A stretch of DNA of 64,000 nucleotides from Tribonema minus (taxonomy: Eukaryota; Sar; Xanthophyceae; Tribonematales; Tribonemataceae), in NCBI GenBank assembly GCA_017506865.1, contig JAFCMP010000157.1, positions 558,001-622,000 of the forward strand, in the 5' to 3' direction. How positions within the stretch are numbered: the first letter of the stretch is position 1; the number at the start of each line of letters is the position of its first letter. The notes under the pieces were generated by a model that had not been told where the DNA came from, did no database searches, and saw only the letters and a list, made by a program, of their open reading frames with translations. The position numbers were made by a program, and so were the translations under genes. This document shows positions 1,592-63,903 of this stretch, piece by piece.

Positions 1592-4198
1592 ATGGAACAC
1601 ATCAAAGCGACGCCGCATGGGCTCGATCTGGACCTACAGAACATGACCAAGGAGGGCGCTGCTGCCGTGCAATCTGCTGAAGCCGCAGCTCGCGGTGGCA
1701 TTGCACGAGGAGGGCCCAGTGCCCTCGCGCAAAGCGTGGCAGACAGGCATGAAGACGAAGGCACACCGCACAAGGGCCCCCAGCGGGTGCGACTGCCAGA
1801 AGACATCGCAGACAAAATGGTGAGTTCCCCACTGAAAAAAGACGTCAGATGCTGTGAATACTTTGACCCTCAATTTTTGTCGAAGAAGTGTTTCGATCAG
1901 ATGGCGCGTTCAAGAGTCAGCTTTACTTGTCGAGATCGACTTTGTGAAGCTCATGGGGACTGGTTCGTGCGCAGTGTGCTGTGGCTAACACTTGTTTCAA
2001 ATGCCACACATCGCAGCTTGAGCTTGGATTGTTGATTTTTCACAATGTATCTGGCTTGAAGTGCCACAGAAACGTGGTGCTGCTGAATGCAGACACCTTC
2101 ATCAGGACAGCGAGGCAATGGCACTCTCTCAAGCAAAGCTACATTTGACTCCACACCTCATTATGACCAGCTTGTGTTTGAGCCTCAGCCTCGGCCCCAG
2201 CTTTGCAGTGGCATATGACGGGTTAAACACTCGCTTAGCAACGCATATTTACAGCATCCTACTGCGCCATGGCCTGCACCACGGTCTACTTGTTGATTTT
2301 GCGCAGTTAAATTGAGTGCAATAGGCACAGCTCTTACATTGTGCTTGCGGCAGCACGATGCCAGGAGCGCACTTGTTTTAGCTGAATGTGCGTGCATGCA
2401 CCACATTTGTGAGCACTTTCCTCTGCACGAGCCTTTGCACATGCACCTCTCCCTGTCATTTGCAGAAGCTGATGCAAATGTGCATGCTGAGCTCAACCTA
2501 GATGCCGAAGCGCTGCCATCTTCTCATTGAGTGTACCCAATGCGCCAGTGCACACAGATCTTACAGTTGTGACGAAGGCCTGGTCGATGTTTGGACCAAC
2601 AAAGTCACCTTGTTGTACTCATCGCCTTGTATTCCAGCGGATTCAAGGGATGCCGGCTGTCCCATTTGCCTCCAATAAGGGTTCAAAATCTATTTAGCAC
2701 CCTAATCTGCACTGCGCGCTGAGAGCTAGGACGCTGGTGCTGTGACACGGCCGCATAATCGAGCTCCACGCGCGTGCATAGGCGCGCGCGAAAAGCGTTT
2801 TGTTATTTTGTTAACTGCAAAACGTGAATGTTGCACGTGCATAAGCTGTTCTTGACAGTTGTCGATGCCATTGGTGAAAGCCTCACTGAAGCAGGGCTGT
2901 GCTATGGATTGTGCTTCTGCACATTCCTCTGCTGTGCCGCAGCCCAAGGCCGCGCACGTTCTCGCGCGGTAGGCGGGCTGCAGCACTCCCTGCATATGTA
3001 CTACATATACATGCACTTACACTTTATATGCAGTCAGACTGAGTGTCAGCGCTCAACCTCATCTGAAGAGTATGCGCACTCGCTGCATACATGCCCACTG
3101 TCCCGCAGCCTGAGGCCGTGCATGCCCGCACGCAGCAGGTCACCAGCAACATCCATATCACCACACACCTGCCCTGTACTCTGACGCACTGCAACATCGT
3201 GCTTCAAAGTACTGCAAAGGTGAACAAGACAGGTGTAACATTTGTTGCCTTTGATGTTGTTGATGTCTGTGGCAAATCCTCCCTGAGAGATGATCGTGCT
3301 CTGCTCGCGCACCCACCACCTTGTACAGCGCGAGGCGTGCACGTTTGCAAGTAGCAGCACGCAGCGGCGCTCCCTACATGCACTCGAACCGTATTTGATC
3401 TGCTCCAACTATGTCACTGCAGCCTCGTCCGAAGAGTCCATCTGCACCCACTACTACCTACTGTCCCGCAGCCTGAGGCTGCGCACGTGCGTGCGCAGCA
3501 GGCTGGCACCAGCGATCATCGCATCATTAAAATGTGTTCATTGAATTTATTCCGCCTACGTCACCGCTCCGCCTCAACCGAAGAGTGTCTGACAGTGTGT
3601 GTGCACTCGCTACATGCCCACTGTCCTGCAGCCTGAGGCTGCGCACGCACGCGCACAGGCCGGCAACAGTGCTCAGCGCATCAACACACACCTAGTGCAC
3701 ACACACTGCACCCTAAAGCAATGCAAACACTGCGCACAAGAGGTGCACCATTCGTTATGCCTGTGTCAAACCTCATGGAGAGACAATCGCTGACCATGTT
3801 GTTATCCGCACGCTCCCTCCCTCCCGCAGCCCGAGGTCGCGCACGCACACGCGCAGCAGGCCGGCGGCAGCAGCAGCAGCGCTCAGCGCATCAACACCAC
3901 ACCCAGCGCCGTCACGCACGTCACCAAGCAGGGCGCCGGCCCGCGCCAGGCGACAGACGCGCGCGCCACCGGCGGTTACACCGCGCTGAGCAGCGCTGCA
4001 GCCGGCCCGCAGACCGAGGCCGACAAGTGCGCAGCAGCACTCGGACAGGGGGGCGGCTTCCCCCTCGCAGGGGCGGGGGCGCCTTCCCTTTCGGGGGGTG
4101 GCGCGCCCCCCCTCGGTCCCGGGGCGGGGGGGAGCCAGCCTGCGAGCGCTGAGGAGGATGCGGGGATCATGCGAACCCTGGAGAAGCAGGCCAGCTAG
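1592..4198 (+). CDS. Small seed-maturation/LEA-like (SMP domain) protein, two exons
   Basis: Exon 1 is 1592-1819 (76 codons from ATG to a GTGAGT donor). Exon 2 is 3830-4198 (122 codons plus TAG, after a CTCCCGCAG acceptor). Both edges are phase 0, giving 198 residues. Exon 1 carries MTKEGAAAVQSAEAAARGG followed by a GGPSALAQSVADRH stretch, matching the pattern of seed maturation protein domains (acidic residue, AAxxQSAE, x-GG-PxAxxQSxA). SMP proteins are hydrophilic LEA-type proteins associated with desiccation tolerance. Exon 2 is Gly/Ala/Ser-rich and disordered and ends EEDAGIMRTLEKQAS. The first in-frame ATG was chosen as the start. The 2-kb intron carries four decayed copies of the exon 2 acceptor edge. 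The stop codon lies in a TAGGGTTAGGG tract. The SMP assignment rests on one motif block, and an extra small exon in the intron cannot be excluded. Confidence 0.55.
1820..3829 (+). repeat. Intron with serial copies of the downstream exon's acceptor edge
   Basis: The real exon 2 begins after CTCCCGCAG with CCCGAGGTCGCGCACGC. Degenerate copies of this acceptor plus exon edge lie at about 2936-2965, 3102-3150, 3465-3515 and 3625-3690. The last extends through the AQRIN-coding stretch before decaying into a stop. Between copies are related tails containing ACTCGCTACATGCCCACTGTC. All are in the same orientation as the gene, and the copy nearest the real exon is the longest. Confidence 0.7.
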
Positions 4199-6888: not shown

Positions 6889-7402
6889 CTATGCTCCCGG
6901 CGCAAACCAGCTGCGCGCGCCGCCGACGCCGCCGCTGCTGCCGCCGCCGCCGCTGCTGCCGCCGCCGCTGGGCGCAGGCGGCGCAAAGTCCGAGGGCTCC
7001 CGCAACAAGTCGCCGCCGCCGCCACTGATGTCGCTGCCGCCGCTGCCGAATGACGTGGAGGGCTCGCGCACCAGCGCTCTATCACTAGCGCCGCCGCCGC
7101 CACCGCCAGCGGCGAAAGCGGCGATAGAGCTGTCGCGCCGCCGCGGCCCCGCCTCGCGCACGCCGTACCCGCTGAGCAGCGCTGCCGCAGAGGCGCGCTT
7201 GCTGCCGAGGGCGACGCTCCCGCCGCCGCCGCCACTGCCGCCGCCGGCGCGTGCGAAGGGCGCCGGGCTTGGCAGCGCGCTGCTGCCGCCGCCGCCGCCG
7301 GGGTGGTGGCGCGCTGCGACGCTGGCCTTACGCTCCGCCGCGGCCGCTGCCGCCGCCTTGATGCCGACGCGCAGCGATGTGATCATGGCCACCGTGTTGA
7401 AC
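6889..7402 (-). other. Terminal exon: Gly/Ser-rich cytoplasmic tail
   Basis: 170 codons plus TAG. The acceptor GCGCGCACAG supplies G to complete the split codon left by exon 7830-8002. The tail starts with RFNTVAMITSLRVGIK and becomes a low-complexity Gly/Ser/Ala region. It has basic patches (GPRRRDSS) and two related acidic/Ser motifs, VREPSTSFGSGGSD and LREPSDFAPP, that look like phosphorylation-type tail motifs. A second copy of the exon's 5' edge lies upstream at about 7490-7525. Confidence 0.75.
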
Positions 7403-10400
7403 CTGTGCGCGCATGGCGGGGGGGCGTTCGTTAGGGTTAGGGTTGGGGTCAGGGTTTGCGTCGGCAGATAGGGTTAGCGATGCCGACGAGGCGATCATGG
7501 CCACCGTGTTGAACCTGCGCACGCATGGTGAGGGGGCGTTCATTAGGGTTAAGGGTAAGGGTTGGCGTCAGTATTGGGGTTTGGGTTAGCGTCAGCAGCA
7601 GCCCGCAGAGCGCGCGGGAGTCTGCGTACGAGCACCGCAGCGAGCGGACTGATGGGTGATGTCCTGTTGATGCCGCTGTGCATCGAGAGAGCCGCTGTCG
7701 CTGCAGCAAACTTGCAGTTGCGTGTTGTGTATCGCCTGCAACATCAGTGCTCGCCACCTAGGAGGCACTCACAACCACAAGGCTGTATGTTGATGATTGT
7801 GTGAAGTGAGTATGTATAGCAGCCCTGACCTGATCATGATGCCCCAGTAGCGGAGGGCGTCACCAAAACGCGCGCGCGCGTCGGGTTCTGCGGCTGCGGA
7901 ACGGTCCCGCGCCGTCGCACGGAACGTTTTTCGGCGCTTGTTGTTCATGCGCCCAACGAGAACCAGCACGGTGTCGAGGTAGACGGGGAGGACCAGCACA
8001 ATCTGCAGCGCTCAGAAAGATGGGACAGCGGCGCAAGTAGGTCAGTGGGTTAGGGCTAGGGTCAGGGTGAGAGTGAATCGACCACTGAAGATCGCAGCAC
8101 TCAATCCATGAGATGGAAGTAGGGCGGGATTGGGGCCAGAGCTAGGGTAAGCACCACCACAATCTGCAGCGCTCAGCAAGATGACACAGTGGCAGCAGCA
8201 GGATGCAATTGAGATGCGGGCAAGCGAGAGCACAGTTCGGCCAGCAAGCAGTAGGGCAGAGGTGGTGTAGGGCCAGGGCTAGGGCAAGCACCACCACAAT
8301 CGCACAGTGCTCATTCGACACGGCAGCTAGCGTTGGACGGTGTCGAGATAGACGGACAGGACCAGCGCAATCTGCAGCGCTCAGCAAGAGGGGACAGCGG
8401 CGCACATAGGGCGAAATGTAGGGCTACGGTGGGGGCAAACACCGCCAAGGGCAGTGCTCATTTGACAGACACCTGGCGTCGAACGTGGTTCTGGTAGGCG
8501 AGCCGGTCTGCACTGCTGGGCAATATGAGACAGCGGCACAAGCAGGACGAATCTAGGGCTAGGGCGGGGGCAAACGCGAGTTGGCCAGCAACGACTGCAG
8601 TACTCAGTTGATGAGGCGGAACAAATGGGGGCGGGTCGAGGTTGGGGCTACTGTGGGGGCGGCAAGCAGCACAGTCTGCAGCGCTCAGCAAGATGAGACG
8701 GTGGCGGAAGTTGAACAGCGGTGCCAGCTGGGTTAGAGCAAGCACGAGTCAAGCAGCAGGATTTGCAGTACTCAGTTGATGAGACGGAAGTAGGGTTCAG
8801 GTTGCTGTGAGCACCAGCATCATCTGCAGCGCCAGGTATGACACAGCGGCAAAAGATGGCAGAAATGGGGCGGGGGCTGGGGTCAGGGGCTAGGGCAAGA
8901 ACCAACAGAATCGCAGTGCTCGGTATAGTCACCATGTTGAAGAGCTGGAGGATCAGGTATGCCCCATACAGGATGTCGGCGGTGGTGACCCCGACTGATC
9001 AAACGCGTAAACCCTAAGGTCAGGGTTAGCCCCAAGGTAAGTCTAGGGTTAGTTCCATGCTGAAGAGCTGCAGGATGCGGTACGCCTTTTGGAGTACGTC
9101 GGCGGTCGTAACCCCCCACAGTAGTCAGAAGTAGTCGAGCTTGCGCTGCCGATCATCAATCCTAACTGTAGGGTTAGGGTTATCCCCAGGGCCAGGGTTA
9201 GCTCAAGCGAAACTGACCTGCTTTCAAATGATTGTGCAATCTCACCATGCTAAAGAGCTGCAGGATGAGGTACGCCCCAAACAATATGTCGGCGGTGGTG
9301 ACCCCGGACTGGTCAAACGCACTAGACCTTGCGCCGCCGACATCAACCTTGATCTTAGGGGGAGTCATACCTAGGGTTAAGGTCAGCCCTAAGGTAAGGG
9401 TTAGTTCATGCGAAGCAAACCTGCTTGATTAAATTAGCAAGCTCACCATGCTGATGAGCTGCAGAATCAAGTATGCCCCATATAGGATGTTGGCGGTAGT
9501 GGCCCCAGATCCCCAAAAAAATGGACATGCGCGCTCGAACTCGCGCCGCCGATCATAAGCCCTAAGGTTAGGGTTTACCCAAAGGTTAGGGTTCTGTAGC
9601 ACCACCTGTTATAGTGATCGTTTCTCGCACACTCACCATGCTGAAGAGCTGCAGAATGAGGTACGCCCCATACAGAATGTCGGCGGTGGTGACCCCTGAT
9701 TGGTCAAACGCGCTCGAACTCGCGCCGCCGATCATGAGCCCGAGGCACGCAATATTGACCAGCAGGGAGCAGCTCTCAGCAAAGTGCAGGAAGCTGTTGG
9801 CGAAGGGCTTCCAGGCACACACGAGCACAAAGTTTGCGCCGTATATGGCGCAGAGCACTGCTGTCGCCACCACGGCGCTGTTGACCAGCGCCGAGATCTG
9901 CGCGGGCGAGCAGAGGAGAGTCAAAGTCTTGAGTCATTAGTCATGAGTCGGGGAGACATGCGGCTGCAGTTCTGCACGCTAGACGGCGAAACTATACAGG
10001 TGGCGACATACATGACCGCAGTGAGCAGAGAAGGTCAGATTCACAAGTCAAAGAGGCATCTGGCATGCTGCCGACCAGCGCCAAGATCTGCGCGCGGGCG
10101 CGGCGTGCAAGGGAGAGAGCGAGAGTCAGAGTCATGAGTCGGGGAGGCATCCGGCATGCAGCGGCTGCAACTCTGCACGAGGCAGTGAGGGCATGTAAGC
10201 AGCGATATACATGGCGGCAGTGAGCAGTTTGTCCCTCGTTGACACCTTCATTTCACCAAAAGTGCTGTGCTAACTGCTTGTTCAGATGCAAATTCTGACC
10301 CTCAGGCTTGCCTGTCCTTCCTGACGAGTGAAGTGCTTTTGAGTTAGCCTTGAGAGAGGGGGGGAGGGAGGGATGACTGATGCGACTGTGCACAAGTTTT

Positions 10401-13400
10401 GCAACCACGCTTCACATTGTTTTGTGGACCGTAGCGTCGGTTCGCCAGGCTGCTGGCAACACGAGTAACCCTACTCCCAGCCTCAATCCTACGCTTTGCC
10501 CTAACCCTGAGCCACTGCAGAAATGGCCAGTGAAAGTTCAACCTAATCTCAACCCAGGGCTTGCGCGCTGACCAGGCTGGTTATCATAACTTGCAAGAAG
10601 ATGATGTAGTATCAACTTCTAAACCTAATCCTGACTCCAATCCTAAACCTACCTTCCGACCTTGGTAGTAACCCTAGCCCATTGCACTGGTTGACCCTAG
10701 CCCTAAGTGCGGGTAGGCCCTAACCCTATGGCAGGGCTAGTGACCCTCATCAGTACGCATAAGCCGCAACAAGATGATCGTGGTGAAGCAAGAGGCGTGT
10801 AGCATACCACACCAACCCTATTACCAATCTATACACCCTGACCTGGTCCCACACCAACCCAATTACCAACCTATACACCCTGACCTGGTCGTAATTCTCA
10901 GTCTACATTTGGGGTACCCCCAACCCTAAGTTGTGGTTAGCCTGGCCCAAGCCTGGCCCAGTGGCTGAGGACTCACCAAGCTGGTGACCATAAGCCGCAG
11001 CAGAATGACCATGATGTAGTACGAGCCATGTCCCGTAAAGTCCCTGAAGACAGGCTCGTAGGATATCATGAAGCCCTCACGACCGATGCGTTCGCTGCCC
11101 TCTTGCACGTCTGGCGGGACGGTCCAGTAGCCCTGCCACTCATGCAAAATAAAACAAATAGGCGATGTCAGTCTGTGCAATGACTTGTGGTGTGTGCGAA
11201 ACAGCAATTATCCAGTAGCCCTGCCATTAATGCAATCAAAACAGATGGGTGGTGTCAGTCTGTGCAATGACTTGGGGTGTGTGGGAAACGGTGATTACCT
11301 GAAGTTTGGGTGAGGGTTTTGTGTCAGGGGAAATGGTAAGTCCAATAGCCTTGCCAATTCGTGTGAGTGTGAGACTCTGACATTCATGCAAGTGAGAAGA
11401 GACGAGATGTGTAGGTCTGTGCAATCACATGGAGGCAGTGATCCGCATGCTCGCGCTGAAAGTCAGAGTTGCTGCTCCTATGCATTCACGAACGCCTTGA
11501 GGTTGATGTCGGTAGGTTCATATTAGTGCTTGTGTGAATTCAAGTGAATGCAAATGGGGGGACAGTCCAGTAGCCCTGGTGTTCATGCAAGCGACAGCAG
11601 ACGGATTGAGTCAATATTTGCCATGACTTGGGGATGTTTGGGAAACAGTAATTACCTGGATTGGAGTGAGGGGTTGTGTCCGGCGAAGGTCAAGGGCCTG
11701 AACGTAAACCATGACCCTAATTGAACTCCACACCAAGCAAGTACACAATGGCAGAATCTGCATGCTGGCGCCTAGAGAAATATCGACCCCTGCAGGGGCA
11801 TGAATTTGTGAATCCCTCGCAGCCAAGCGAACAAACTGTCAGGTGTGTTGGTAGGTAAGTAGGACCGGCACGTCACCTGAGCACTGATGATCTTTCACAA
11901 CACTAACAACAGCAACATTAAGCGCCGAAACGTGAATCAAGCAGGAACAACAGCATGGTGAACCTTCCTGCAGCTACAAGCATTCTTCCATCAGCAATTG
12001 CAAGAACCCTGTCAGCAAAATCAGGGAATGTGATTACAAACTTTCTCGAACAAGTGAGCACTCGAGCGTGATGTGGTGACAGTCAGAGTCAGAGCCTGAG
12101 GCAGTGGCGGCAAGCAGCCCGACCAGATGAGATGCCAGTGCGACACTTCATCATGAAGTTGACGAGCCCACTCGTAGGGAAAAATGGACTCTGCGGAGCA
12201 GCCGCAACGGGCGTGCGTAATGGCAGGGGCCACTTGAGCATGAGGTACAAAACTACATCGGGCTGCTCATCTTGAAGTTTCAAGTGTTGACTTACCTTGT
12301 CCGCGGCCGCAAACATGGACTCCCCCGGCATGCACGCGTGCTTGAAGTGTCTGGTGGCTTTAAAAAAAACAACTTAAAGGTTAATGTGTTGACTCACCTA
12401 GTCGGCGGCTGCAAACATGGCCTCTCCCAAGATAATGTCATATAAGCATTATTGCACCAGTTCAAGCTCAAGTTCAAATGTCAGGGGGTGCAAGTTCAAG
12501 TTCAAGTGTTGACTCACCTTGTCGGCGGCCGCAAACATGGACTCTCCCGTCATGCACGCGTGCTTGACGGAGGCCAGCATGACACACAGCACGCCTCCGC
12601 CGCACCTCCCACGTGCTGCATCATCATACGGATGGTATCAGCATTAAGGGGATGGTATCAGAATTTGGCATATGAAGCAGATGCCAAGCGTAGCGCGAGA
12701 ATTTTGTTCAACAAGTGATTGTACGAGTAAGTTTGGTAGCAGTGCCGACCCGCACAAATAGAAAATAATTGACACACAGCAAGCCGCCGCCGCACCTTTC
12801 GCGCGCTGCATTATCAGAGGGATGGTATGTATGGAATGGTAGCGGCGTCATGGGGATTGTGTTGGTACTTTGAACTTTGTTTTCTCACGAAGTAGGCGTA
12901 CCAGTATGTTTAAAATGGTGGCAGTGCCCACGCGTACAAGGTACTTCTGAAGTACTTGAAGTACCAGTTATGACACACAGCACCCCCCCGCCGCACCTCC
13001 TGCGCGCTGCATCATCATAGAGATGGTATGTATGGAATGGTATCAGCGTCAGGGGATGGTATCAGCATTGGGCATGTAAACAGAGCGGCATAAAGAGAGC
13101 CAAGGGTGGTGATGGTATCAAACGATGGCATCAAAAGGTGGTATCTGTAGCAAGCAGAGACAGTGAAACAAAACACGTGAGTGCAAGAAACAACAGCAAC
13201 AAAGTGTCACGCTTCGAAGGGCATGCAGATAAGATCATCATAGGGGTGGTATGTATGGGATGGTGTCAGGTGTCAGGGGATGGTATCAGTTCTTAGCAGG
13301 TAAGGCGGAGATGGCGTAAAGTGCCATGAGTCTGCGCCGGTCGTGCGTAAGGCGAGCTTTCATCCAACAAGTACTCGTGCGAGCACATTACAACTGGTAA

Positions 13401-16042: not shown

Positions 16043-16078
<36 letters not shown>

Positions 16079-20151: not shown

Positions 20152-20186
<35 letters not shown>

Positions 20187-46970: not shown

Positions 46971-47054
46971 GCTGCTTCCTCCTTGCTGAAAGGCGGGCCA
47001 GCGGATCGCGTGTCTGATCGCTGTTGCTGTTGCTGCTGCTGCTGCTGCTGCTTT

Positions 47055-47088
<34 letters not shown>

Positions 47089-49261: not shown

Positions 49262-50115
49262 GCGCGGGGCATGTGGTTGGTGGAAGCAGCGATGTTTGTG
49301 GACAAGGCGAGCTGTAGCTATAGCTGTAGCCGGCAGATGGTACAAATCAACAGATGCTGCTGCGGTGATGGTTACGAGCAGTCACTGCAGTGTTGTTGAC
49401 CAACAAGGTGAGCTAGCCCGCAGATAGTACGATGCTTCTTTGGTGGAGGTCATGTTGTTGAACAACATCATGTTGCACTGCGACCACCACAGTGGGCTAT
49501 TCTGCCACTGGCAGTAAGACCTGCATGAAATGGGGGGGGCACTTCCTTGCAGGAAAAGCTGCCATATTGTTTGAGCATGATGTTGACAGGCCAGCAGCGA
49601 GGATGGCATGATGATCACTCAGCAATGCAAAACATGCAAAAATCATCATGGGGGTGCGATATTGTATCATATGTTGAACGCATGATGTAGTCCATTGACG
49701 TTACTAATAGACGTGTACCTCTATCTATTCACAAGACACCAACGGGGCTGCGGATCACAGCGCAGTACCGCAAGCATATGGCACAATGTCCTGTCTATAG
49801 ACAGCTGTTGTTGGCCATTTTGTCATGTGAACATAGGCACCTTCAGCAATTCACGATCCTAGCACCGTGCACGACCTCAGCAAGTACCTCTTCTAATTTG
49901 CTGGTACTGTGTAGCCAGTGCCACTGTGTACAGCAGCGGATGCATGTGCACCGCGACATCGTGCAGAAGTTTACATACATACAGAACGTCCAAGCATTAC
50001 TTAGTTGCTCTATGGAGAGTCCGACTACCAATCGGCAATTCTTGCACTTTGCACGAGTGCTCCTGATCTCGGCTAGAAGCAGTACCACCATCTTCTGGCA
50101 TGGACTTCTTACTAC

Positions 50116-52718
50116 TTAATGCCTGGCGGTGCTGAAGCTGAAGCGCTCGTAAGCACGCACCAGCCCCCTCACAGGGGCCCACAAGGCTGGCTCCAATTCC
50201 GATTCTGAGTCTGAATCTAAACGCTTGCCACCGCCCTTGTTCCATGTCCCGACATCAGACTCGCCATTGACTCCATTGGAAGAGTGCGCTTGGGGGGCGT
50301 GCTGATATGTGCGTGCGTGGGGGGGTAGAGGGGGGCCGGGGTAGGCCAAATACCAGATGCTCAGCAGGCAGCCGAATGCGCACCACTTGCTGCCCCACGT
50401 TTCCTGGTAGGTGAAGGCTACGGCCAGGGTGGCCACCAGCGCAATGAGCTCTGGCATTCTGCCTGCGAGAAAACAGCCGACAATATGTGGGTGACATGCG
50501 GGTGGTGGGGGCTGTTTCAGGAGAAAAATGATCAATTTGGCGGTGATTCAAAATCGAAAACATGCTTGCATATCTTTGGAGCAGCAGAGGGCAGCGGTGC
50601 ACAAGATGAGTCTTCTCATGATGCTTGCAAGCCAAAGGACAACTCCTGGCAGGGCTTTTCAAAAAGCCTACCACGTTTCGTACAAGAGTGCAGTCACAAT
50701 TTGCAACGCCAAGCATCATGCCACAGTGTGTTGTTCCAAAAATTGATTACTTCAAAGTAGTAACCCTCTCCTGACAGTGTGATGGTTCTATCGCTTATCA
50801 TCGTTGAGCTGTAAATATTGTGCACACACTTTCCAGCGTGTGGCACAGTGTCACTTTGGGTGGCAAGGGCTTTTGTTATCACTCAAGTGTCGGTTCGAGT
50901 AGATGCACAGTGGGCATCATTTGCGTCATGTATTACGCAGCAGGGTAAACTACTAACAGCTGATTAGAGCATATGGCAGTTACATGCTCGTTGCCATTTG
51001 GCGGCTACGGCAGTTACACTTGCCGGCACTTAGACCACATACATTCACTTCTAGGAGCATACGACTGGCGCCGTTCTTCTGTTGCGTAGGTCACCTTAGT
51101 ATCTGCCTCTGTCGGTGTGAAGCAACATGCTAGTGACTCAGAGCAGCAGCTCTCTACATTGCCATGCAGTGATTTGCAGGCACTGCATGCGGGAATTCCA
51201 TCACATCATCAACATGTGTGAAAATCCATGGGGGTGCGCAACTTGCAAGTAGACCTCACAAGAGCAGGATACCTGAGGCCAGCATTGGCGGAGCCACCAT
51301 GGTCATATAGTAGAAGAAACCATATCCCGGTATGGTGCGGCCAGCCCACAGAGGGCTGCCGAAGTCCAGTTGCGAGGGAGTGGAGCAACGGCCATTGGCC
51401 ACATAGTGGAACCACGCTGCCGGCGTCCATGTTGCAGACGTTCCTGCACAGTTAAAGAGAAATGGGCCCTCAGACTCACTGGCAGACTTTGAGTCAGATA
51501 GGTCTGATAGCACACATGTGCGTGCATGTTGAGGTGAAGTCTTGCTGAGTATGTCTGTTGCATCATCCTGGTTCCCAATGATATTTCCTAGCGATGCATG
51601 TGTCCTAGCCGCGGGGCTTGTGTCTTATTGCTTGGGGGGCGTGGTTGTCCCCATGTGATGTGGTGGTGAGCTGTATGCTCTCAAGGTCCAGTGATCCGAT
51701 GCAATACGATCAGTCACATGGTGTTGTAAGGCACTCACGGTGGATTTCAATAGTAGCAAAACGTGCAACGACTGTTACTGAACATGCAGTTGTGTAGACT
51801 TGTCGACTCGACACAGTAGCAGCAGCAGCAGTAGCAGCAGCTGTTGTACAGCTTGACCATGCCTCTGGTCACCTGAGGCATGAAGTTGCTGCGGCGGCGC
51901 AGATTTGTAGCACTGTATGATGGTGTGTGATCAAAACACATACCAAACAACTTCACGTACCAACACGACGTTGTGGCGCTGCTGACACCGCTGCCGACAA
52001 CTAGTAGCAGACAGTTGGTGCTTTCCTGGCGAAATGGCATATGGCCACCCTGCTGAAAAGGCTTTGCAAAACCTACCAAGTAGCTCCTGGCTCTCACGCT
52101 GTGCTGTATTCTTAAAAGCGGTGCACATGTTGTGCACTCGGCTCTCTGCGTATACGCTATTCATGGACGCTCGTCTTGCATCTTTTATGTGTCACTGAGC
52201 ATGCACACGCACCCCAAATAAACAAGCCGCACCTAAGCGCCACAAAATGTCAGTGATCCAGCTCGTATAAAGGCCTTTAAGGCCGGGCCCCTCAAGCAGT
52301 ACAGACCTGTCGTGTGCAGCACATGGGCTCATGGCGTGCATCTTGAAGCTCACACCGGCCAGGACTTGCCTGCGACGACGTGCGCCAGCTGGCCGATGAC
52401 AGCGCCACATGCTAGTAGGAGGCAGCTGGTGGATAACTGACTGAACCTCAGCTCTAGCTGCCGCCCTGCCAGCTGTGCGCGTAGCGCGATGGGCAGAAAG
52501 AAGGCCGTGGTGATCCAGTTGGCGATGCTGCAAGTCCCGTCCGGAGCCGAATCCATACCATCCCACCACAACACCGCGTCTGCGAACTGTATACTGCCGA
52601 TCAACCAAAGTGTCACTGCATTAGCCCTGTCCCAACGGATGTTGCGATGGGCCAGGTAGCCAGCCGCGGCATACGTCGCAACCCCGAAGGCCAACGACGC
52701 TTTCAAACTCCAGCACAT
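50116..52718 (-). CDS. Three-exon multi-pass membrane protein of the MCWS type (DUF5765-like), intact copy
   Basis: The exons are 52718-52354, 51478-51273 and 50462-50116 (TAA), with phases 2 and 1, encoding 305 residues. It begins MCWSLKASLAFGVATYAAAG and has about six hydrophobic segments, including ALRAQLAGRQLE-flanked helices, FFYYMTMVAPPMLAS and IALVATLAVAFTY. It ends with a disordered acidic tail (RLDSDSESELEP) and WAPVRGLVRAYERFSFSTAR. The reading frame of the middle exon was fixed by comparison with the left copy. The chosen frame shows two amino-acid changes, the alternative six, and only it gives a membrane-compatible FHYVANGRCS...GYGFFYY segment. Short membrane proteins starting MCW with conserved early Ser/Trp residues occur in algae and algal viruses, with no known function that I can name. 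The family assignment is from memory of the pattern and is tentative. Confidence 0.75.
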
Positions 52719-54216
52719 GATGCTTCTCCCGTGCTGAAAGGCGGACCGGTGGATCGCGTGCTTAAGTGCTGCTGCTGATGCTGCTGCTGCTGCTGCTGCT
52801 GCTGATGCTGCTGCCTGCTTCACCTCACCCGTTTTCCCGCACGTTGAAGTTCAACTTGAAGTTCACCGACTCTTCAACGTTGAAGTTTGACGAGGAGGGG
52901 TAGCGTTTAAACAGTTTGGATCGTCGGCTTAAAGTGCTTTGCTCTACTGCCCGTAATCGGTTTAACTGACTTTGGTACTGAGTAATGCATCATGATCTAC
53001 GCCCTGATTACTGCTCTAATTTCCTGCGACTGTATGAAGTCCACTACACATTTTGTGATGCCCACCTCAACTGAGATCACATACCTTGACCTAGGCCACT
53101 GGCAGGTAGCCGGCTACGGCATAGTATGTTGCGACACCGCCCATTTTTCAGCTGCCTGATGCACCAGTGTCATGCATCATTAGGTGAACAACTTCATGCT
53201 CAGAAATGATTCAGAGACAAGAACACTTCAAGGCGCACACCGCGGTCACGTGCTGCTGGACTGTATTGCAGACAATCCACTAGCACTCCAATGCTTCAGT
53301 TGTCAGCATTGGCGTCAACATGTATGCAACAAACCATACTATCTGCCATTGTTATCCTTCAAGATTCAGCGACATTCGCATACCCTGTGCAGAGGGCGAT
53401 GGCAGCAGTGCAGGCATGCGCGCAGCAGCGCAGCTGACAAGAGGGAGGCAATTGTTAACTGTCTCTGGCCCACAGGCAACATGAATGTAGCAGTCAGCTT
53501 CGTGCTATGCTGCTCTAAAATACTGACTTTATTGAAAAACCCTTTTCGAAAGTTGATGCACGCCATCGTGCGCAGGACGCCTTTTACCTCACTGTACGTG
53601 GCACTCTAGTACACCGCATGTATCTGCAGCGCTCAGCAACTTGTGTCATCGTTTTTCAACATCTGTACGCAGCCCTGGCACAACTCAGAAAGCTGCTCAG
53701 AAAGGCCGCTTGCGGCTTCTGGTTTCATGCTCACGGCCCTGCACTGTACTAAAGTGGCGGTCAAGAGGCTGAGGATTGCTGATTGCTGAGCTCATCGGCT
53801 CTTGGGACAGAAGCTGCCGAGGCTGCTACTGCAATCTACTGCTTCCCCGATCAGTCTGAGATGCCACTTGCAACCTTGCGACGCCTGAGTTGAGATGCAC
53901 GATGCTATTGGTGAGCGCAGTGCCTATTGTCAGACCAAGGCGGCAGCGGCTCACCGCAGCATGGCAGTGGTTCGTGAAGTTGCAATAGCGCTCTGGCGTA
54001 TGTGCCCTTTGCCGCCGACTGCTTGCTGCTGCTTTAGCTACAAGCCAGCTCTACCTCAAATCAACCGGGTCAAGACTGCTGCCACAGCGCGGCGGTGACA
54101 GCTGCCACTGCCCTTCATGCTGAGCACTGTTGCAGGATGCTGTGGTAGCTCCCAAAGACTCTGAGAGGGACTTCTTGACAGCTGATGATGCGTTGCTGGG
54201 AAGGTCCTGGTGCCCC
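52719..54216. other. Spacer between the two genes of the right unit
   Basis: No gene seen. It is the counterpart of 46971-48446. Conserved islands with the left unit include CGTTGAAGTTCAACTTGAAG near 52840 and CACCGCGGTCACGTGCTGCT near 53238. Confidence 0.5.
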
Positions 54217-55125
54217 TCAACCAACATCTGCGGCCGCCAACGCCTGACTCTCAAGATCACACAGCATTGTCGTGTGGATGCTGTCGCTGCCGCCGCCGGC
54301 ATTCACAAAACTGGCATCTCGTTGCACAGCACTGCCTTCTGCAAATGTCTTCGTGTCGATAGGGTTGCTATAATTGCTGCTGCTGCTGCCACCACCGTCA
54401 TCACCACCAGCACCCGCACTAACTTTACGACCAACACCCCCAGCACCACCAAAGTCGGCAGCAGCGCCGCCAGCAACGATAGCAGCCCCTGAACCAGGAC
54501 TGCTGCAGCTTTCAGGCGACGGTGCGCACGTCACTGCCACGGCTAAAGTTCCGCCAGGCTCCGCCGCCGGCGCGACACGCGCGCCGCCGCCGCTGCCCCT
54601 CTTCGCCGCCGTCGCCGCCGCCGCCGCTGCTGCTGCCGCCTGCTGCCGCCGCTGCGCCTTGCGCGCGCGCTGCGCCGCCGTCTCCTCCGACCGAAAGCGC
54701 GCCTCAAAATCAGCGTATGCACGCGCAATCCCCGCCTCCATGTCCCTCAGCAGCTGCCGCCGCCGCGCTTTCACCCACCGCCGCCGTGCCGCTGGGTCCG
54801 CCGCCGCCGCCGCCGCAGCAGCGGGCTCGCGTGCCGCCGCTGCTGCCGCTGCCGCCGCGGCGCCGTCCGCGCGGTGCGCCGCCGCCGCGCAAACGGCGGC
54901 GGCGGCGGCGGACAGCAGGGCGAGGGTTACGCGCAGCGCGTGCGGTGCCGCAGGGAGGGCGCTTATGGTGACCATCGTCGCGAAGGCGATGAGCGATGCT
55001 GCGCCGCAGCGGCGGCGGCGGCGCTGCGCACGTGCGTACGCGGCGGGCTCCTGCAGGCGCGCCGCGTGCGCGTTGCGGAGCGTCGCCGCTTGCGCTTCGA
55101 CCCTGGCCTGCGCTGCCGCCTTATC
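54217..55125 (-). CDS. Ala-rich coiled-coil protein with a hydrophobic hairpin, terminal exon
   Basis: A 909-nt exon starts after a CCGCCCCCTACAG acceptor (phase 0) and ends at TGA 54217. It opens with a coiled coil (DKAAAQARVEAQAATLRNAH), then RRRRR, and two hydrophobic segments, ASLIAFATMVTISALP and ALRVTLALLSAAAAAVCAAA. Next come a poly-Ala stretch, a basic helix (RRRWVKARRRQLLRDMEAG) with ARFRSEETAAQRARK, and a low-complexity C-terminus ending LESQALAAADVG. The frame is supported by protein-level conservation with the decayed left copy. The best upstream partner is exon 57423-57178, which ends in phase 0 within a coiled coil; that would give about 382 residues. I do not recognise the family. 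A 488-codon open frame on the opposite strand is a by-product of GC-rich repeats. Confidence 0.55.
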   Translation of the reverse strand, partial: DKAAAQARVEAQAATLRNAHAARLQEPAAYARAQRRRRRCGAASLIAFATMVTISALPAAPHALRVTLALLSAAAAAVCAAAAHRADGAAAAAAAAAAREPAAAAAAAADPAARRRWVKARRRQLLRDMEAGIARAYADFEARFRSEETAAQRARKAQRRQQAAAAAAAAATAAKRGSGGGARVAPAAEPGGTLAVAVTCAPSPESCSSPGSGAAIVAGGAAADFGGAGGVGRKVSAGAGGDDGGGSSSSNYSNPIDTKTFAEGSAVQRDASFVNAGGGSDSIHTTMLCDLESQALAAADVG

Positions 55126-57423: not shown

Positions 57424-58730
57424 CTGTGAGGTCTTGCCTCGGCTGCCAGCGCTGCAGCGCTATGTGCAGCAGGTGACAACCCTGCAAAAGCGTACCCCCT
57501 AAGTACCCTCCGTTACTTTCCTGCCGTTTCAAATAGCTAAGAAAAGTGAGGTGTCAAGAGATACGCACCTGGGGGCAACAGCTGTGTTAGCTGAGTACCA
57601 GATCTCCTGTAGAAGCTGTCAAAGTACCCTCAGAAACCCTCCGTTACTTTCCTAACCGTTTCTAGTGCGAAGACAGATCGGAGGTTTTTCAAAAAAAAAA
57701 GTATGCACCATGGGAGCAACAGCTGAGTTCGCTGAGTACCAGATCTCCTGTAGAAAGCTGTCATCAACATTGCAATGACCAGGCACCTTGTGGTGCTGCT
57801 GCATTCCATCCATTCTAGAGCCGGCAGACAATTCTCTGTCCCATGCAGCATTAACCACTGTGCGTTGATCCAGCATCCAGCCTCGCTCTAAACCAGACTG
57901 CAAGTCAGCATGGGTCAAATGATGCATTTTGGGGCTGACAACAGCAGTTACAGTCGGAAATCTGCAGTGGCTCAACAATTTTGATGTAAATTAAGCCAAG
58001 GAGACACATGATCACCAGCAAGCAGCGCAAGTCACGCATAAGTGACACACATTTTGTGGTGTTCCATCACTCACATTCATATCCATCCCATTTGCTGATT
58101 GAGTGACTGTGCCCCCCGGTCGAAGGCTGCTGATGCTGGCGCTCATGCATGTTGACTCTTCAGTCCTTCAGCCATCTGCGCATTGTTTTTTGCCCTGTAG
58201 GCATTGGCAACATGCAGTGCAGTGCGTAATGCACCTCACATGTGGCGCCCCTGTGGCCTTGGGCCATGCGAGGCCTGCTTGCTTGGTGGCTCAGAGCTTC
58301 AGACCCCCCTGCTTACGCACAGCCGTGCGGCAGTTGAGGGCCCGAGCTTACACGCATATATACCTGCCCCCTGGCAGAGATCCGAGCGTAGCCTCATTGT
58401 GCGTGCAGAATATTTGCTTGCATCGCGAGTGGCGACGCAGCTGGCTCGCAGCAGTGACCAGCTGTACCGCGGCGTTGCCAGCCACTTGCAGTTCCACCAT
58501 GACCACATCAGACACTCAATGCTGTGTGCGCATGTGTGTGATGCGGTTGACTGCGCACATGGAAAACCGCATGAGCGCTGCCGCATGCGAAACCGCCGAC
58601 TCAGGGTCGCTCCACGCACAGCGCCTGCGGTGCCTGAGTGGCAGAGCACTGATCTGGTGCGCAGCAACGTGCGCGCTCTATGTAATATAGAAGGACCCTA
58701 TTAACGTGATTGACGAATTTGCAGCAGCGC
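57424..58730. other. Spacer with a ~150-bp duplication
   Basis: A unit with GCAACAGCTGTGTTAGCTGA then GTACCAGATCTCCTGTAGAA at about 57572-57660 is repeated at about 57714-57775. Both lie near a CCCTCCGTTACTTTCCT motif (57506, 57640). A minus open frame at 57652-57978 and a plus one at 58204-58704 lack recognisable motifs and splice context, so I do not call them. Confidence 0.45.
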
Positions 58731-61700
58731 TCAGCGCCGTGGCATCCTGCTGCGCCCGCGTCCCCTGCCAAAGCTGATCTCGCTCGGCACTACCGACATC
58801 CTCCTGAACGCAGTGCCCAAGTCATCAACATCCATGCTTTCCGGTGCGCTGCCGTTAGCACCGCCGCCACCTTTATGCAACAAGCTGCTGCTGCCGCCGC
58901 CGCCGCCACCCGCGTCTGCTTGGGTTTCAGTATTCGTGCTGCTGGCGCCAGTGTCGCTTGTGATGCTAGGCTGAGCACTGCTGCTTTTGTGCTCCTCAGC
59001 CAGGCCGGCGACGACGTGCAGAAACGGGCACTCCGCGCCGTTGCGGCAGCCGGCGGCGGTGTCAAAGAAGTGGCAGCGGCGGCGCCGCTTGGCCGTCTTG
59101 CCGCCGTGTTTCTTGCTGCGTTCTGATTGGTTGACGACGATGGCCGCCGCGGCATCCGATTGGTCAGCGGGAGCTTGTGATTGGTCAGCGGCGCTGCCGC
59201 TGCGGCCCCGCAGTGCGCCGGTGTGGTGCTTCACGGTCGGTTTTTGGCCGGGGGGGCGGTGGAAGTCGAAGGCGCGGGGGTAGTGGTGCACCGCGATCAT
59301 GTGCGCGCGGCGGCCGTTGTTGTCCTTGAACTTCTGCGATGGGGTAGGTAGGTTGTGTGCATGGGGGAGAACACTGAATCCGTCAGTCAGGTTTGGTCAA
59401 ATGTACTTTTATTAATTTCGCTTCGCAAGGGGCGCGAAAAGCCCTCTCTTTGGATGTGCACTCAATGCAACATTCCTTGTCAAATGTACTTTAACACATC
59501 AGAGGCGCCAGATACTTGTACACATTATCGGTGCCAGGCCAAAAGTGCTCAAGGCACAGTGCCGACGCTAGCTGCGGGGACAGGTGCTGTTGTCCATGAG
59601 CTTCTGCGAGTGGGTATTTATGTAGTGCGCGCGGGGAAACACTGAATCAGTCACGTTTGGCCAAATGAACTTGTACACGCCAGAGGTGCCAGGCTAGTTG
59701 TGCTCACTCACGATAGAAACCTGCGGGGACAGTGGCTGATGCTAGCTGCAAACACAGGTGTTGTTGTCCGTAAACTTCTGTGAGGGGTATGTGTTTAGTG
59801 TGCATGGGGAAACACAATCCGTCAGTAAGGTTTGGTCAAATGTACACGGCAGAGGTGCCAGAACAGTAGGCTTATGACACATATCTGCAGGCACGGCAGG
59901 CACAGCAGCTGATGCTAGCTGCAGACACAGGCTTTGGCATCCTTGAATTTCTGCGAAGGGCATATATATTGCGCATGGGAATTACTATCTGCAAGGGGTG
60001 GCCAGATGCACACGTTAGAGGTGCCAGACCAGCAATGCTCACGACACGTATCTGCAGGCACAGTGGCTGGTGCTAGCTGCAAACACAGGTGTTGTTGTCC
60101 CCTGAACTTCTGTGAGGGGTATGTAGGTAGTGCGCTTGGGAAGCGCATTCTGTCAGGTTTGGCTGTACACGGTTAAGGTGCCAGACCAGTAATGCTCACA
60201 CACATCTGCAGGCGCAGTAGAGGCTGCTAGCTGCAAACACGGTGCCCGTCGCACAATGAAACTTGTGTGCATGGCAGGAATGCGGTCCCTGCTTCCTCAG
60301 TGAAAAGCGGCTCATTCACTGCAACGGATGTGGCCCACAAAACATGCAAGCGGCTTCTCAAAAGTCATTCGCAAGATGCAGCCAGCGATAATCACAAGCG
60401 ACAGATGCGCTTTAACCCTAACCCTAAATGATCACAATGCGCAAACTAACCCTAACCCTGTTTCTAACCCCACCCCTAACCCTCACCTTAACTCTGACCC
60501 TAAGATCACGGTACTGCTTCCTTCTGTGGCTGCAAATATCTAATGGTTATGGCGCGCATGCAGCAGCTGTGGCTTTCAAGTTCAAACTTCAAACACCTGT
60601 GCGCTCGCTCATGCGGCGGCCATTGGCACTAGTAGATTTTGCCATGAATTAAGTGCCTCCGAACAGCAAGGTCAGCATCATGACGCCATTCAATGCGCGG
60701 ACTACCTGTGCACAGAGCCATGGGGCACCAATTAAACTTCAGCAGTGAGACAGGCGCCTTGACAGCGGCTGAGCATCAGCACACAGCGTTACAAGTACTC
60801 TGTCGACATCATGTCAGTGGCTTGAATGCACGAGGCTGCATAGGCCAGAAAGTTACCTACTTCATTAATCAACTTTAAACACCCCAAAAGTCAAGCAAGG
60901 GCTAGATTTCAGGTCAGGGTTAGGGTACATACAACCACTTGCTGTTCACGGATGGTGGGCCAGCAGGCAAACAGTTACAGTAGTGGACTTCAACGCGTAG
61001 TCATCAGGTGATACCGCAACAGTGAAGTTTGTCACCTTTCGTACTTCAACGCTAAATAATCATCAGCAATACTTGCAACATTGAAGTGTGAGATTTTGGC
61101 ACCTTTCCGCAGCCTTCCACCAGGCACTCGTACATGTGCCGCTTCTCCGCCATGGCCTTGAAGTACGAGTCGTGCAGCTCGCTGAGGTGAAGATCGAGGA
61201 GCCTGCAGGAAAAACATCAAATATTGCATGAAAGCGAATCAAAAGATCGTAGAGCCCTACTAGTAGATGACAAGGTGTGGTTAGCCTTCAATTGAATGTG
61301 TGAACTGGTGCTCTGTAGCATGGATACATGTGGCTCGTGAGCCTGCAAAAAAAAAGCAACATCGAATATATGTGGATTGTGTGCGCCCAGGTGTTGTCGA
61401 CACAACGCATCTCGGGACCTGTATGACACTCTTGTCGATACAACGCATCTTGATTAACCCTATCCCTAACCCTAACTTCTGTACGACACTTGGGTATACA
61501 ATAGTCAGTTGCCGAGATGCGTTGTATTGACAACACCTGGGCGCACAGTTGGTGCTTTGTAGCATAGACTAGAGACATGCCTGCAGAAGAGCAAAAACCT
61601 CGAATGTGTGTGTTGCACCGTAGAGAGAGGGTCACCAATGCAACCGAAGACCGACGCCAGTCGTGGCGCTGCTAGAAGTGATGGTGTTGCGGTCTGCATG

Positions 61701-63903
61701 CCGGCAAGCGTAAGTGCCGTACCCGTCAAGCGTGCAAATGGCAATGAGCATGCAACTGCCATATGCTCCAACAGTGTGGATTGGAGTCTGACATGTATTC
61801 AAATGCGTGTACATGTGCATGTATGCGCACGTGTACCTACATACCTTGGCGTGATGAACGCGCGGCCGCAGGTGGCGCACGTGTGCCTGTGCGAGGTGTC
61901 GTAGTGCTCGTTGAACCTGCAGCAGCATCGCGGCGACGATTTCACACAACAGTTAAAAACAACGTAGTCATCAACCCGATACATCAATGGGCAGCGTCAG
62001 CAGGGTCGTCAAACGCGGTGCATGACTACATGTACACACTCTTAGCACGTTGTACAGTCGAAGTGCTCGTTGAACGTGCAACAGAGCGATTTGGCAACGA
62101 TACGCCGTTAATGGCGGGGCGCTATGTGCTGTGTCAGTAGGGCCGGCAAACGCGCAGATCGCCTGTGTGCTTTAACAGCGGGCAGTCAGCTCTGCTCGGG
62201 ACATTCGCTGGGAACACCTCACAGCACTCCCAATTTGATGCGATAAAATTAAATTGGTGTGGCGCCAGATGTGTCTGCAACCCTAAAACGTGTTGACACA
62301 GCGGTTCCTGTGGGTAGCTGAGCAATGTCGCAGTGGTTGCGCAGCGCTGCTCAACAAAGCGCGCGTGATTTGCAGTGGCGAACATCATACTTGAAGTATG
62401 CTACTTGAAGTATGCGGCAACATGCGCGTCCCTGCCTCGCCACACGTTCAAGACAACACTTGTTGTGCGCTATTCATGATAATAAAAAAAGGAGCATAAG
62501 TAGGTATACATGCTCTATTTCGAAGTCTCCACGGCACACTGAAAGCGAGCAGGTATATACCTGGTGGTGCTAGCGCAAGCGGTGGCTTCTGATTTTTTAA
62601 ACACGCAACAGAAACCTAAGCATGTTCCAGCACCTTTAGTGCTTTTGCATGTTCAAGACACATTCGTGCATCTACTCATCCACTGCTCGCTGTAAACCTA
62701 CCAAAGAACTTTTGCAATCAAATATACCCCCCCTCCCCCCCTTTTCAGTAGCTGTTGACCCACCAAAGCTCATCTGCTTCACATCCCCCCCCCTCCAGTC
62801 TTGGCTAAAACCAAGAGCGCATACCTGGCAGTGCTGGTGAAAGTGGCGTTGCACCCGCCTATTCTGCAGGCAAAGCCCCCCGTGTGTGCGCGCCCCCCCG
62901 CTGACTGAGCATCCTCCTCATCATCCCACAAACCGTGCAGCACGCTCATCTTGCAGGCTGTTGCCCTGGCCAGATCGCCTGCAATGAGTCAACGAGTCAT
63001 GCAATTGAAAGAGTCATGAGTCGCTGACTGAGCATCCGCTTCATCATCCCTCAAATCGTGCAGTTGCCCTGGCCAGATCTCCTGCAGTACGTCAACAAGT
63101 CATGTGAGTCTGAGATTCATGAGTCTATAAGCAGTGCTCTCATGTTGCCGGCCATCGCCCTGGCCAGATCACCTGCAGTGAGTCAAGGAGTCATGTGAGT
63201 CATGGAGTCATGAGTCATTGACTGAGCTCCTCCTCATGATCCCACAAGCCGTGAAAACGCTCATCTTGCAGGCCGTCGCTCTGGCCAGATCGCCTGCAGT
63301 GAGTCAACGAGTCATGTGAGTCAAAGCGTCCTGAGTCTCTCAGCATTGCTCACCACTGCTTGCCAATGTGGCATAATTGAAGCTTCTGTTGTTGCGGGCC
63401 CTTACAGAGGCTAGATCGCCAGATAACACTGCAGCGAGCCTTAGAGTCATGAAACCTCTCAGCAAAACGCGAGTTGAGGTCTGAGCTTTCCTCGGCAGAC
63501 AGGATGAATTAGGATAAACTTTGGGAGCTTCGATGCGCAGTTATATCTGTGGCGTTGCAAAGACGAAGCAGATTTACACCGTCTTCTGCGGCGTTGCTTT
63601 TATAACATCAACCTGAGGGACCTCCAAAGGCTGGAAGCATGATCGCAGGTATATGGCCTGGATCTTCAAGGGCATTGCGAGCGATACTGTCTGAAGCAAC
63701 ATGTTTAGCACCGAGTAACAAGACATACCTGCCTCAAAGAACGGATCATCTGGCTGGTATCGCCTCTTGAAAGGTGCTGTGTGAAGCGTAGCCAGGGCAC
63801 TTGCGGGCACAGGCGGCTCCACCTCCATGCCCACATCCCCATCAGCTTCCTGTGACTTGCCAAGCCCAGCGGCCACCAGCTCTCCCTCGTCCATCATTGC
63901 CAT
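58731..63903 (-). CDS. ZNF511-type zinc-finger protein with an added CCCH finger, five exons
   Basis: The exons are 63903-63729, 62978-62825, 61916-61845, 61202-61103 and 59333-58731 (TGA), with phases 1, 2, 2 and 0, encoding 367 residues. Three C2H2 fingers lie in the ZNF511 arrangement: C-x4-C-x12-H-x4-H (CRIGGC...HYDTSH), C-x2-C-x12-H-x4-H (CATC...HLSELH) and C-x4-C-x12-H-x4-H (CLVEGC...HMIAVH). The family hallmarks FNEHYDTSHRHTC, RLLDLHLSELHDS, MYECLVEGC and HYPRAFDFHRP are all present. A C-terminal CHFFDTAAGCRNGAECPFLH is a CCCH finger (C-x8-C-x5-C-x3-H) of the RNA-binding type, preceded by a basic KKHGGKTAKRRRR nuclear-localisation-like run. The tail is Gly/Ser-rich and ends GRGRGRSRMPRR. 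The N-terminus from MAMMDEG includes RRYQPDDPFFEAGDLARAT. It is probably nuclear; RNA or DNA binding is inferred. Start at 63903; Met 63894 is an alternative. Confidence 0.93.
59334..61102 (-). repeat. ZNF511 intron 4: serial acceptor-edge copies of the last exon and a CCCTAA tract
   Basis: The acceptor edge of the last exon (GTTGTCCTTGAACTTCTGCG on plus) recurs at about 59587, 59762, 59938 and 60090. Each is followed by a GTATGTxTxTAGTGxGCxTGG tail and a TGCCAGACCAGTAATGCTCA-like segment, a unit of about 155-175 bp. A CCCTAACCC-rich stretch lies at 60413-60510. The remainder, 60520-61100, shows nothing I can assign. Confidence 0.8.
61379..61552. mobile_element. MITE-like element, copy 2, in a ZNF511 intron
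   Basis: The left end TGTGCGCCCAGGTGTTGTCG, continuing ACACAACGCATCTCGG, is inverted at the right end (CCGAGATGCGTTGT then ATTGACAACACCTGGGCGCA). This gives inverted repeats of about 36 bp around a roughly 100-bp centre, which contains a CCCTATCCCTAACCCTAACT tract. It has no coding capacity. The ends are shared with 55636-55819. Confidence 0.65.
62979..63728 (-). repeat. ZNF511 intron 1: serial acceptor-edge copies of exon 2
   Basis: The exon 2 acceptor edge (GCCCTGGCCAGATCGCCTGC on plus) recurs at about 63066, 63158 and 63275, with a weak trace at 63408. Each is followed by AGTGAGTCAACGAGTCATG-like sequence rich in GAGTCATGAGTC. Sequence from deeper inside exon 2 (CATCCTCCTCATCATCCCAC) also recurs at 63035 and 63225. 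Confidence 0.8.

Follow-up and report, generated by a model that had tools for sequence, protein, structure and literature searches.

In four genes of the yellow-green alga Tribonema minus, a xanthophyte and thus a stramenopile, the introns are populated by degenerate copies of the edges of the exons next to them, and we consider it probable that these introns hold exon-anchored tandem arrays of the type described as 'mirages' in amphioxus. The genes lie in a stretch of 64,000 nucleotides (positions 558001–622000 of contig C157, G000:C157, in an assembly of 158.2 Mb; hereinafter the window). Long introns are usually attributed to transposable elements; in these four genes, much of the intron length consists of copies of their own exon edges and flanks, and splice junctions carry arrays at a frequency above that expected from a neutral model.

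The four genes were modelled by hand as 34 exons and 30 introns, every intron having GT-AG termini. Gene C, a citrate carrier on the plus strand with seven exons, yields on splicing by hand a protein of 286 aa that is 100% identical over all 286 aa to an annotated T. minus protein. Gene P, on the minus strand (29845–6889), encodes a propeller/TRP-like protein in 20 exons that form a single 1183-aa frame with no internal stops; Pfam returned a weak TRP match (E-value 1e-4, under the cut-off). A protein search with P recovered no homologue in an unrestricted run and four in a region-limited run, among 8000 candidates scored, none of the four carrying a T. minus name. The homologue P0121 (by its name an assembled transcript) is 43% identical to P and is ungapped (±6 aa) at 10 of the 13 junctions within the aligned range; the Ectocarpus homologue is 32% identical, with 8 of 12 such junctions ungapped. 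Gene S (SMP-like, plus strand, two exon edges at introns) and gene Z (ZNF511-like, minus strand, with C2H2 and CCCH zinc fingers in Pfam) take their names from a first-pass annotation of the window; a Pfam search of S matched no family.

Edge copies in adjacent introns and their anchoring

Using the 60-bp edges of the exons as probes (n=60; score ≥40; searched lengths summed over probes), we recovered 61 matches in 64.1 kb of the edges' own adjacent introns, against none in 735 kb of the remaining introns of the same gene and none in 1070 kb of the introns of the other three genes. The opposite adjacent introns gave three matches in 53.5 kb, all of them contributed by exons only 58 and 73 bp long, most of which the probe covers. 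Antisense matches were absent from the own introns (64.1 kb), with one found elsewhere (1859 kb), and a self-comparison of the window returned 141 direct repeat pairs at a spacing below 1.6 kb versus three inverted ones. These comparisons bear out the claims of the first-pass annotation that the copies number about 60, always lie in gene orientation and surround only their own exon; a second set of probes, up to 120 bp long, recovered 60 copies, 55 of them in the intron half nearest their own exon.

At least one copy was found for 31 of the 60 edges (17/30 acceptors and 14/30 donors; 36/60 if array families are counted instead of probes), and 25 of the 30 introns contain a copy from one or both of their flanking edges. 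Copies of both edges are present in six of the 30 introns, and the statement that nearly every long intron is bipartite was to that extent too strong. In Z and S, one of eight and one of two edges, respectively, are positive by probe. Intron sequence in the four genes totals 32.0 kb, of which array spans take up 59% and repeat copies 47%, set against a repeat-copy coverage of 11% outside the genes and outside a duplicated block (see below). No significant correlation links intron length with copy number (rho 0.28, P 0.14), which lends no help to the idea that the copies set intron length.

Introners or another transposable element might be envisaged as the generator of such repeats, many loci being affected. 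Since none of the 60 exon-edge probes matched a non-adjacent intron of the four genes, the spread of a common element, already discounted in the first-pass annotation, is refuted at this sensitivity as far as the exon-edge parts within the window are concerned, and we hold such an origin to be extremely improbable.

Exactly one exon edge is included in 36 of 40 array families, and 26 of the 28 families in gene P are anchored. A placement null that keeps the coding sequence intact gave 12.0 ± 2.8 single-edge families (maximum 20 in 300 runs), or 18.6 ± 2.8 without the coding filter, and a forward simulation of neutral decay gave 21.6% edge families against the 90% observed, with almost no detection bias; these are different nulls, each of which takes the families as independent. 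Detection bias alone was considered and rejected: the simulation recovers edge and intron-only duplications near-equally at neutral distances of 0.18 or less. Among families with an intron–intron pair of at least 85% identity, six have an edge and one does not. The anchoring stands above both nulls and, with comparable arrays at other loci (see below), supports the recurrent local duplication across splice junctions that the first-pass annotation had proposed. An alternative is that tandem duplication proceeds at a uniform rate everywhere and selection eliminates the duplications inside exons, the anchoring being only apparent because exon units remain recognisable for longer. It is favoured by two younger tandem arrays in P introns that lack an exon edge (10807–10890, 42 bp; 29623–29780, 16 bp from a donor), by non-coding local duplications at random loci and by the consideration that edge arrays, if refreshed by the exon, would remain recognisable far beyond their simulated lifetime. 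The two nulls, the excess of edge-bearing families at high identity and the excess of single-edge families at random loci all argue against uniform duplication, which we regard as a serious contender, albeit an unlikely one.

Unit anatomy, decoy splice sites and divergence of the copies

With the longer probes, 54 of the 60 copies extend to the splice junction, their exon part measuring 23–105 bp (median 55), and among these the GT is intact in 25 of 28 donor copies and the AG in 25 of 26 acceptor copies. Copies of one edge often end at nearly the same exon-side point, as is expected of a single array. The periods reported by Tandem Repeats Finder in the edge-array families range from 35 to 328 bp. 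In the young arrays, the units simply follow one another head to tail across a donor (23194–23948, period 225, 96% match, at P exon 6; 18382–18628, period 98, 95% match, at P exon 10), and the alignment of the best copy continues at least 200 bp into the intron at P exon 6 and 148 bp at P exon 10. At P exon 7, the repeats are organised into a higher-order unit of 328 bp, as in minisatellites. The near identity of the youngest units (96% array match) might raise the suspicion of an assembly artefact; most copies, however, are several percent to 20% different from the exon, and a like pattern recurs at a paralogous locus on another contig and at random loci, making an artefact scarcely credible.

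As splice sites, the copies score well: medians are 5.3 for both donors and acceptors among the copies and 6.6 (donors) and 6.1 (acceptors) for the true sites, whereas GT and AG dinucleotides taken at random from introns have medians of –1.5 and –0.5, respectively. In 20 of the 54 junction-reaching copies, the score equals or exceeds that of the true site copied. The annotated C protein agrees with use of the outermost splice sites, and the transcript-derived homologue agrees with the P model at 10 of 13 junctions. Telomere-like motifs (TTAGGG/CCCTAA) occur at 4–6 times the first-order expectation in the 20 random loci as well as in the window (e.g., 16700–16900, 24786–24948 and 9200–9600), and at about three times the outside density within the four genes. 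Telomere-like TTAGGG inserts were considered as a possible cause of the arrays and set aside; the association is modest, with a telomere-like 6-mer within 30 bp of 12 of 60 copy ends, at only 6 of the 31 edges, against a background of 9.8% for 30-bp stretches drawn at random from these introns.

Exon and copies differ at 8.0%, 5.6% and 17.8% of codon positions 1, 2 and 3, respectively, and at 20.6% of fourfold sites. When these differences are apportioned, changes private to the copies are near-even over the three positions (45/865, 37/854 and 56/854; 5.2%, 4.3% and 6.6%), those private to the exon fall mainly at the third (2/307, 3/301 and 13/301; 0.7%, 1.0% and 4.3%), and mixed columns, reflecting shared older states, do likewise (7/307, 3/301 and 26/301; 2.3%, 1.0% and 8.6%). 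The near-even private changes indicate that the copies in the window decay as non-coding DNA while the exon is constrained, and the copies retain common past synonymous states of the exon. An indel or stop is present in 16 of the 60 copies, and 12 of the 18 gaps are single-base deletions. Protein-level selection on the copies was considered in view of the third-position excess relative to the exon and rejected on the near-even copy-private changes. More broadly, the copies might be functional, as alternative or regulatory exon pieces under selection, a view that would suit their third-position-heavy differences from the exon, their mostly intact splice dinucleotides in the window and the conservation of the exon-derived parts far above the flanks. 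The evenness of the private changes, the indels and stops, the preponderance of single-base deletions and the fact that the copies are partial exons, ending 23–105 bp into the exon, render this improbable.

Among 46 pairs of copies, the closer one is the more exon-like in 31 (P = 0.025). Between copies, divergence is 0.10–0.20 within the first 70 bp of the exon part, 0.29 at 70–80 bp and 0.26–0.46 in the intron flank, with a step located at the splice junction; the gap fraction does not exceed 0.01 over the initial 60 bp of the exon part and reaches 0.02–0.13 in the flanks. A neutral snapshot simulation reproduces the private changes and misses both the flanks (copy–copy identity 0.68–0.89 simulated vs 0.59 observed) and the third-position excess (at most 0.154 simulated vs 0.178 observed). 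This pattern of divergence suggests that the live exon may act as a conserved master that refreshes the exon part of the copies; as regards concerted evolution of the units, what was observed is the 328-bp higher-order unit and the divergence step at the junction. An RNA route, in which reverse-transcribed pre-mRNA or cDNA converts the locus, would also explain why conservation ends at the junction and would fit the step there and the exclusively sense orientation. We consider it very improbable: the young arrays carry intron flank along (at P exons 6 and 10, as given above), and a homology-dependent conversion tract between diverged flanks would account for the step without RNA.

The exon-anchored arrays probably arise in four steps. 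As the young arrays display, the process begins with the head-to-tail duplication of a junction-straddling segment of tens to ~330 bp, comprising 23–105 bp of exon and the neighbouring intron. The unit attached to the exon body would then remain exon and the extra units would become intron, as the gene models imply, the outermost intact sites probably still being spliced despite good decoys, as exon definition would allow. The intronic units next decay, with little codon-position preference and some frameshifts, and the exon changes mainly at third positions, both of which are seen in the window; as new units continually form, copies of one edge document different past synonymous states of the exon. 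Finally, the exon unit, being the sole member under selection, could serve as a permanent template from which unequal exchange or gene conversion proceeds, such that the exon-derived half stays similar, the intron-derived half drifts and the introns extend outward from the exons. A bolder proposition is that transcription, splicing or exon chromatin directs duplication to junctions, that introns throughout the genome grow mainly in this way, that the exon overwrites its copies and that near-perfect decoys are tolerated; this we advance tentatively, as possible but somewhat doubtful. If it is true, each intron would be a fossil record of the past synonymous states of its exon. One alga offers for testing whether junctions are hot spots of duplication, whether exons are masters in the concerted evolution of their flanks, and how a spliceosome would pass over decoys in full context.

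Other loci in the genome and comparison with known systems

P exon 18 has a paralogue on contig C113 (88% identity) with extra edge copies downstream. Differences between the two exons number 3, 2 and 22 at codon positions 1, 2 and 3, respectively, out of 86 sites, and small insertions indicate that the C113 exon is probably a recent pseudogene. In a tree of eight exon 18 copies, the C113 exon is joined by two of the four C113 copies (support 0.71), and the window exon by one of the four window copies (support 0.90). On these groupings, copying probably continued after the gene split, some copies perhaps predating it. On the same tree, paralogues appear disfavoured as donors of the copies. The paralogue of P exon 19 (C113:497340–497400) is apparently interrupted by a stretch of telomere-like repeats.

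We further sampled 20 random stretches of 10 kb, in which exons were predicted ab initio by a window-trained predictor at score 16. Such prediction is imperfect: in a leave-one-gene-out check at score 14, it overlapped 21 of 26 inner exons and placed 36 of 52 edges exactly, with 4 of 27 calls false. At a spacing below 1.6 kb these loci contain 112 direct repeat pairs versus six inverted ones. A copy was found for 25 of 123 predicted exons and for 30 of 246 predicted edges (12%), as compared with 31 of 60 edges in the window; with the caveat that the exons are predicted, an equal strength of the phenomenon across the genome is not upheld. In the own flank, acceptor edges gave 15 copies over 115.0 kb and donor edges 28 over 116.6 kb, against five matches in 185.7 kb of the opposite flank, three in 1394.5 kb of the flanks of other loci and one antisense in 231.6 kb. 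Non-coding probes had a local copy in 33 of 407 cases, corresponding to 0.66 matches per 10 kb versus 1.3 for acceptor edges and 2.4 for donor edges, so the excess of edges over non-coding sequence at random loci is only two- to fourfold. By families, 21 of 56 include a single predicted edge, six include two or more, three are exon-internal only and 26 are edge-free; the 21 single-edge families compare with 11.4 ± 2.7 in simulation and equal the maximum of 300 runs. The GT is intact in 18 of 21 junction-reaching donor copies. The edge-copy phenomenon is hence general, weaker outside the window and present off edges as well.

Several of these observations weigh against exon-anchored arrays refreshed by their exons. 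Copy density is lower outside the window, and the 26 of 56 random-locus families without contact to a predicted exon imply that purely non-coding local duplications occur too. The codon pattern of the window was not reproduced in the random loci (47 copies, predicted exons), where exon–copy differences are 9.3%, 11.7% and 14.7% and copy-private changes 5.0%, 8.2% and 10.2% at codon positions 1, 2 and 3, with one, three and three mixed columns of 173–179 each; there, of the 14 acceptor copies that reach the junction, no more than 8 have an intact AG. Five of the eight exon 18 copies fall outside the grouping with their own exon, being unplaced by the tree or placed elsewhere. Lastly, use of the outermost sites is a prediction of the gene models, and gene conversion is deduced from sequence divergence.

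The amphioxus 'mirages' are tandem duplications of exon–intron boundaries in a few genes, with units of 10–160 bp and copies 81–100% alike within one gene (PMC3087553). One globin gene there has units of 150–160 bp spanning an intron end and an exon start, a second has a duplicated donor edge, and Adh3 had been reported earlier; many copies retain AG/GT, splicing is reportedly undisturbed and haplotypes differ. The T. minus arrays resemble them in that the unit spans the boundary (36 of 40 families being single-edge), that donors and acceptors are both affected, that the units are of minisatellite scale (35–328 bp here vs 10–160 bp) and that AG/GT is kept in many copies (25/28 GT and 25/26 AG in the window). 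They differ in that mirages are known from a few genes of a cephalochordate, whereas here, in a stramenopile, 36 of 60 edges and 59% of intron length are involved and the arrays are mostly decayed. The T. minus arrays are most likely a stramenopile case of the mirage type at high density. With the structure known from amphioxus, the interest lies in scale, lineage and anchoring statistics; what is new relative to mirages is the lineage, the density and the statistics of edge anchoring. The novelty claimed in the first-pass annotation is correspondingly reduced as to the structure, and stands insofar as no genome with edge duplication as its main mode of intron growth was found in the open-licence papers searched.

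Tandem repeats at the exon–intron boundaries of recent paralogues are also described in a human study (PMC2812944). In a potato RdRp gene, a tandem duplication across an intron–exon boundary likewise carries splice signals along, but as a single event that created a new intron (PMC4974935); in T. minus, the arrays extend introns already present, and we make no claim of a new one. The AGGT model of intron gain also invokes tandem genomic duplication within genes as the supplier of intron sequence, but, as we read it, would put copies at the far intron end (PMC3443670), whereas 55 of the 60 T. minus copies sit in the intron half nearest their own exon; the arrangement of that model, with the following edge at the intron start and the preceding edge at its end, is thus not the one seen in the window. 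Neointrons of Daphnia, with direct repeats from staggered breaks, share passive lengthening by repeated local duplication, but involve exon–intron repeats of 4–12 bp and new introns (PMC4202315), in contrast to the 23–105 bp of exon and the long introns here. Introners, too, repeatedly supply intron sequence to many genes of a genome, but there one element is copied to many genes (PMC9860276), whereas in T. minus the sequence is specific to each exon.

Arrays by junction and other features of the window

In gene S, the array at 2929–3909 (plus strand) consists of copies of the acceptor and 5′ edge of exon 2 (3830–4198). All arrays of gene P are on the minus strand. From its 3′ end, acceptor arrays are seen at exon 20 (7402–6889; array 7375–7569) and exon 19 (8002–7830; array 7968–8921). 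Exon 18 (9897–9637) has a donor array of four copies (8929–9741) and an acceptor array (9877–10227) that the edge probe missed, as it did the acceptor array of exon 17 (11132–10977; array 11112–11687). Both sides are likewise affected at exon 16 (12615–12518; two-copy donor array 12268–12567, acceptor array 12579–13289) and exon 14 (14448–14212), where a copy of the donor edge (14087–14249) accompanies a two-copy acceptor array of period 180 (14373–14851). At exon 12 (17180–16964), the three-copy donor array (16229–17054) has telomere-like motifs between units, and the acceptor array (17117–17404) has a period of 153; exon 10 (18687–18583) combines the young donor array of period 98, here delimited as 18339–18628, with a copy of its acceptor edge (18625–18842). 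Exon 9 (19745–19443) has a donor array (18910–19476) and a four-copy acceptor array (19679–20492), and minus-strand poly-C tracts lie directly upstream of its acceptor and of most copies (19746–20490).

Further upstream in P, exon 8 (20955–20855) has an acceptor array (20923–21516) and exon 7 (22789–22402) a donor array of five copies with the 328-bp higher-order repeat (21579–22460). The young donor array of period 225 at exon 6 (24094–23873) comprises three copies within 23122–23948, and its acceptor array lies at 24068–24588; exon 5 (25019–24962) has an acceptor array (24986–25437). Copies of the donor edge are found at exon 4 (25745–25605; copy 25453–25678) and exon 3 (27086–27014; copy 26860–27059), together with acceptor arrays of four copies (25689–26411) and of 1-bp contact only, treated as anchored (27086–27504), respectively. 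Exon 2 (28475–28302) has a two-copy donor array (27826–28356) and a three-copy acceptor array of period 186 (28398–29157), part of the latter (28548–29141) forming a single open frame of 197 aa that runs through several units, intron parts included.

In gene C (arrays on the plus strand), exon 2 (33662–33820) has an acceptor array (33249–33713) and a decayed donor array (33787–34479), which splits into an anchored family (33787–34126) and an unanchored one (33972–34479), by eye of the same edge. A copy of the donor edge accompanies exon 3 (35266–35379; copy 35332–35666), and acceptor arrays are found at exon 4 (36083–36202; array 35679–36135), exon 5 (37274–37348; array 36619–37296, period 110) and exon 7 (39533–39712; array 39145–39550, missed by the edge probe), with a two-copy donor array at exon 5 (37319–38081). 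Gene Z (minus strand) has acceptor arrays at exon 5 (59333–58731; array 59316–60244, period ~173, missed by the edge probe) and exon 2 (62978–62825; array 62899–63351, three copies by the longer probe). A local repeat in an unnamed minus-strand gene (57505–57763), which lacks a model and lies outside all counts, apparently includes an exon with its acceptor and donor.

Elsewhere in the window, 43445–49265 and 49328–55007 form a tandem-duplicated minus-strand gene region with 73–80% identity in its three largest pieces. In this gene pair (43.4–55.1 kb), repeat-copy coverage is 0% and blastn gave no local repeat pair; Tandem Repeats Finder reports short-period repeats, such as a 29-bp repeat at 46458–46521. 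Two intergenic open frames on the plus strand (40768–41712 and 41911–42885; 314 and 324 aa) are possibly the remains of a mobile element.

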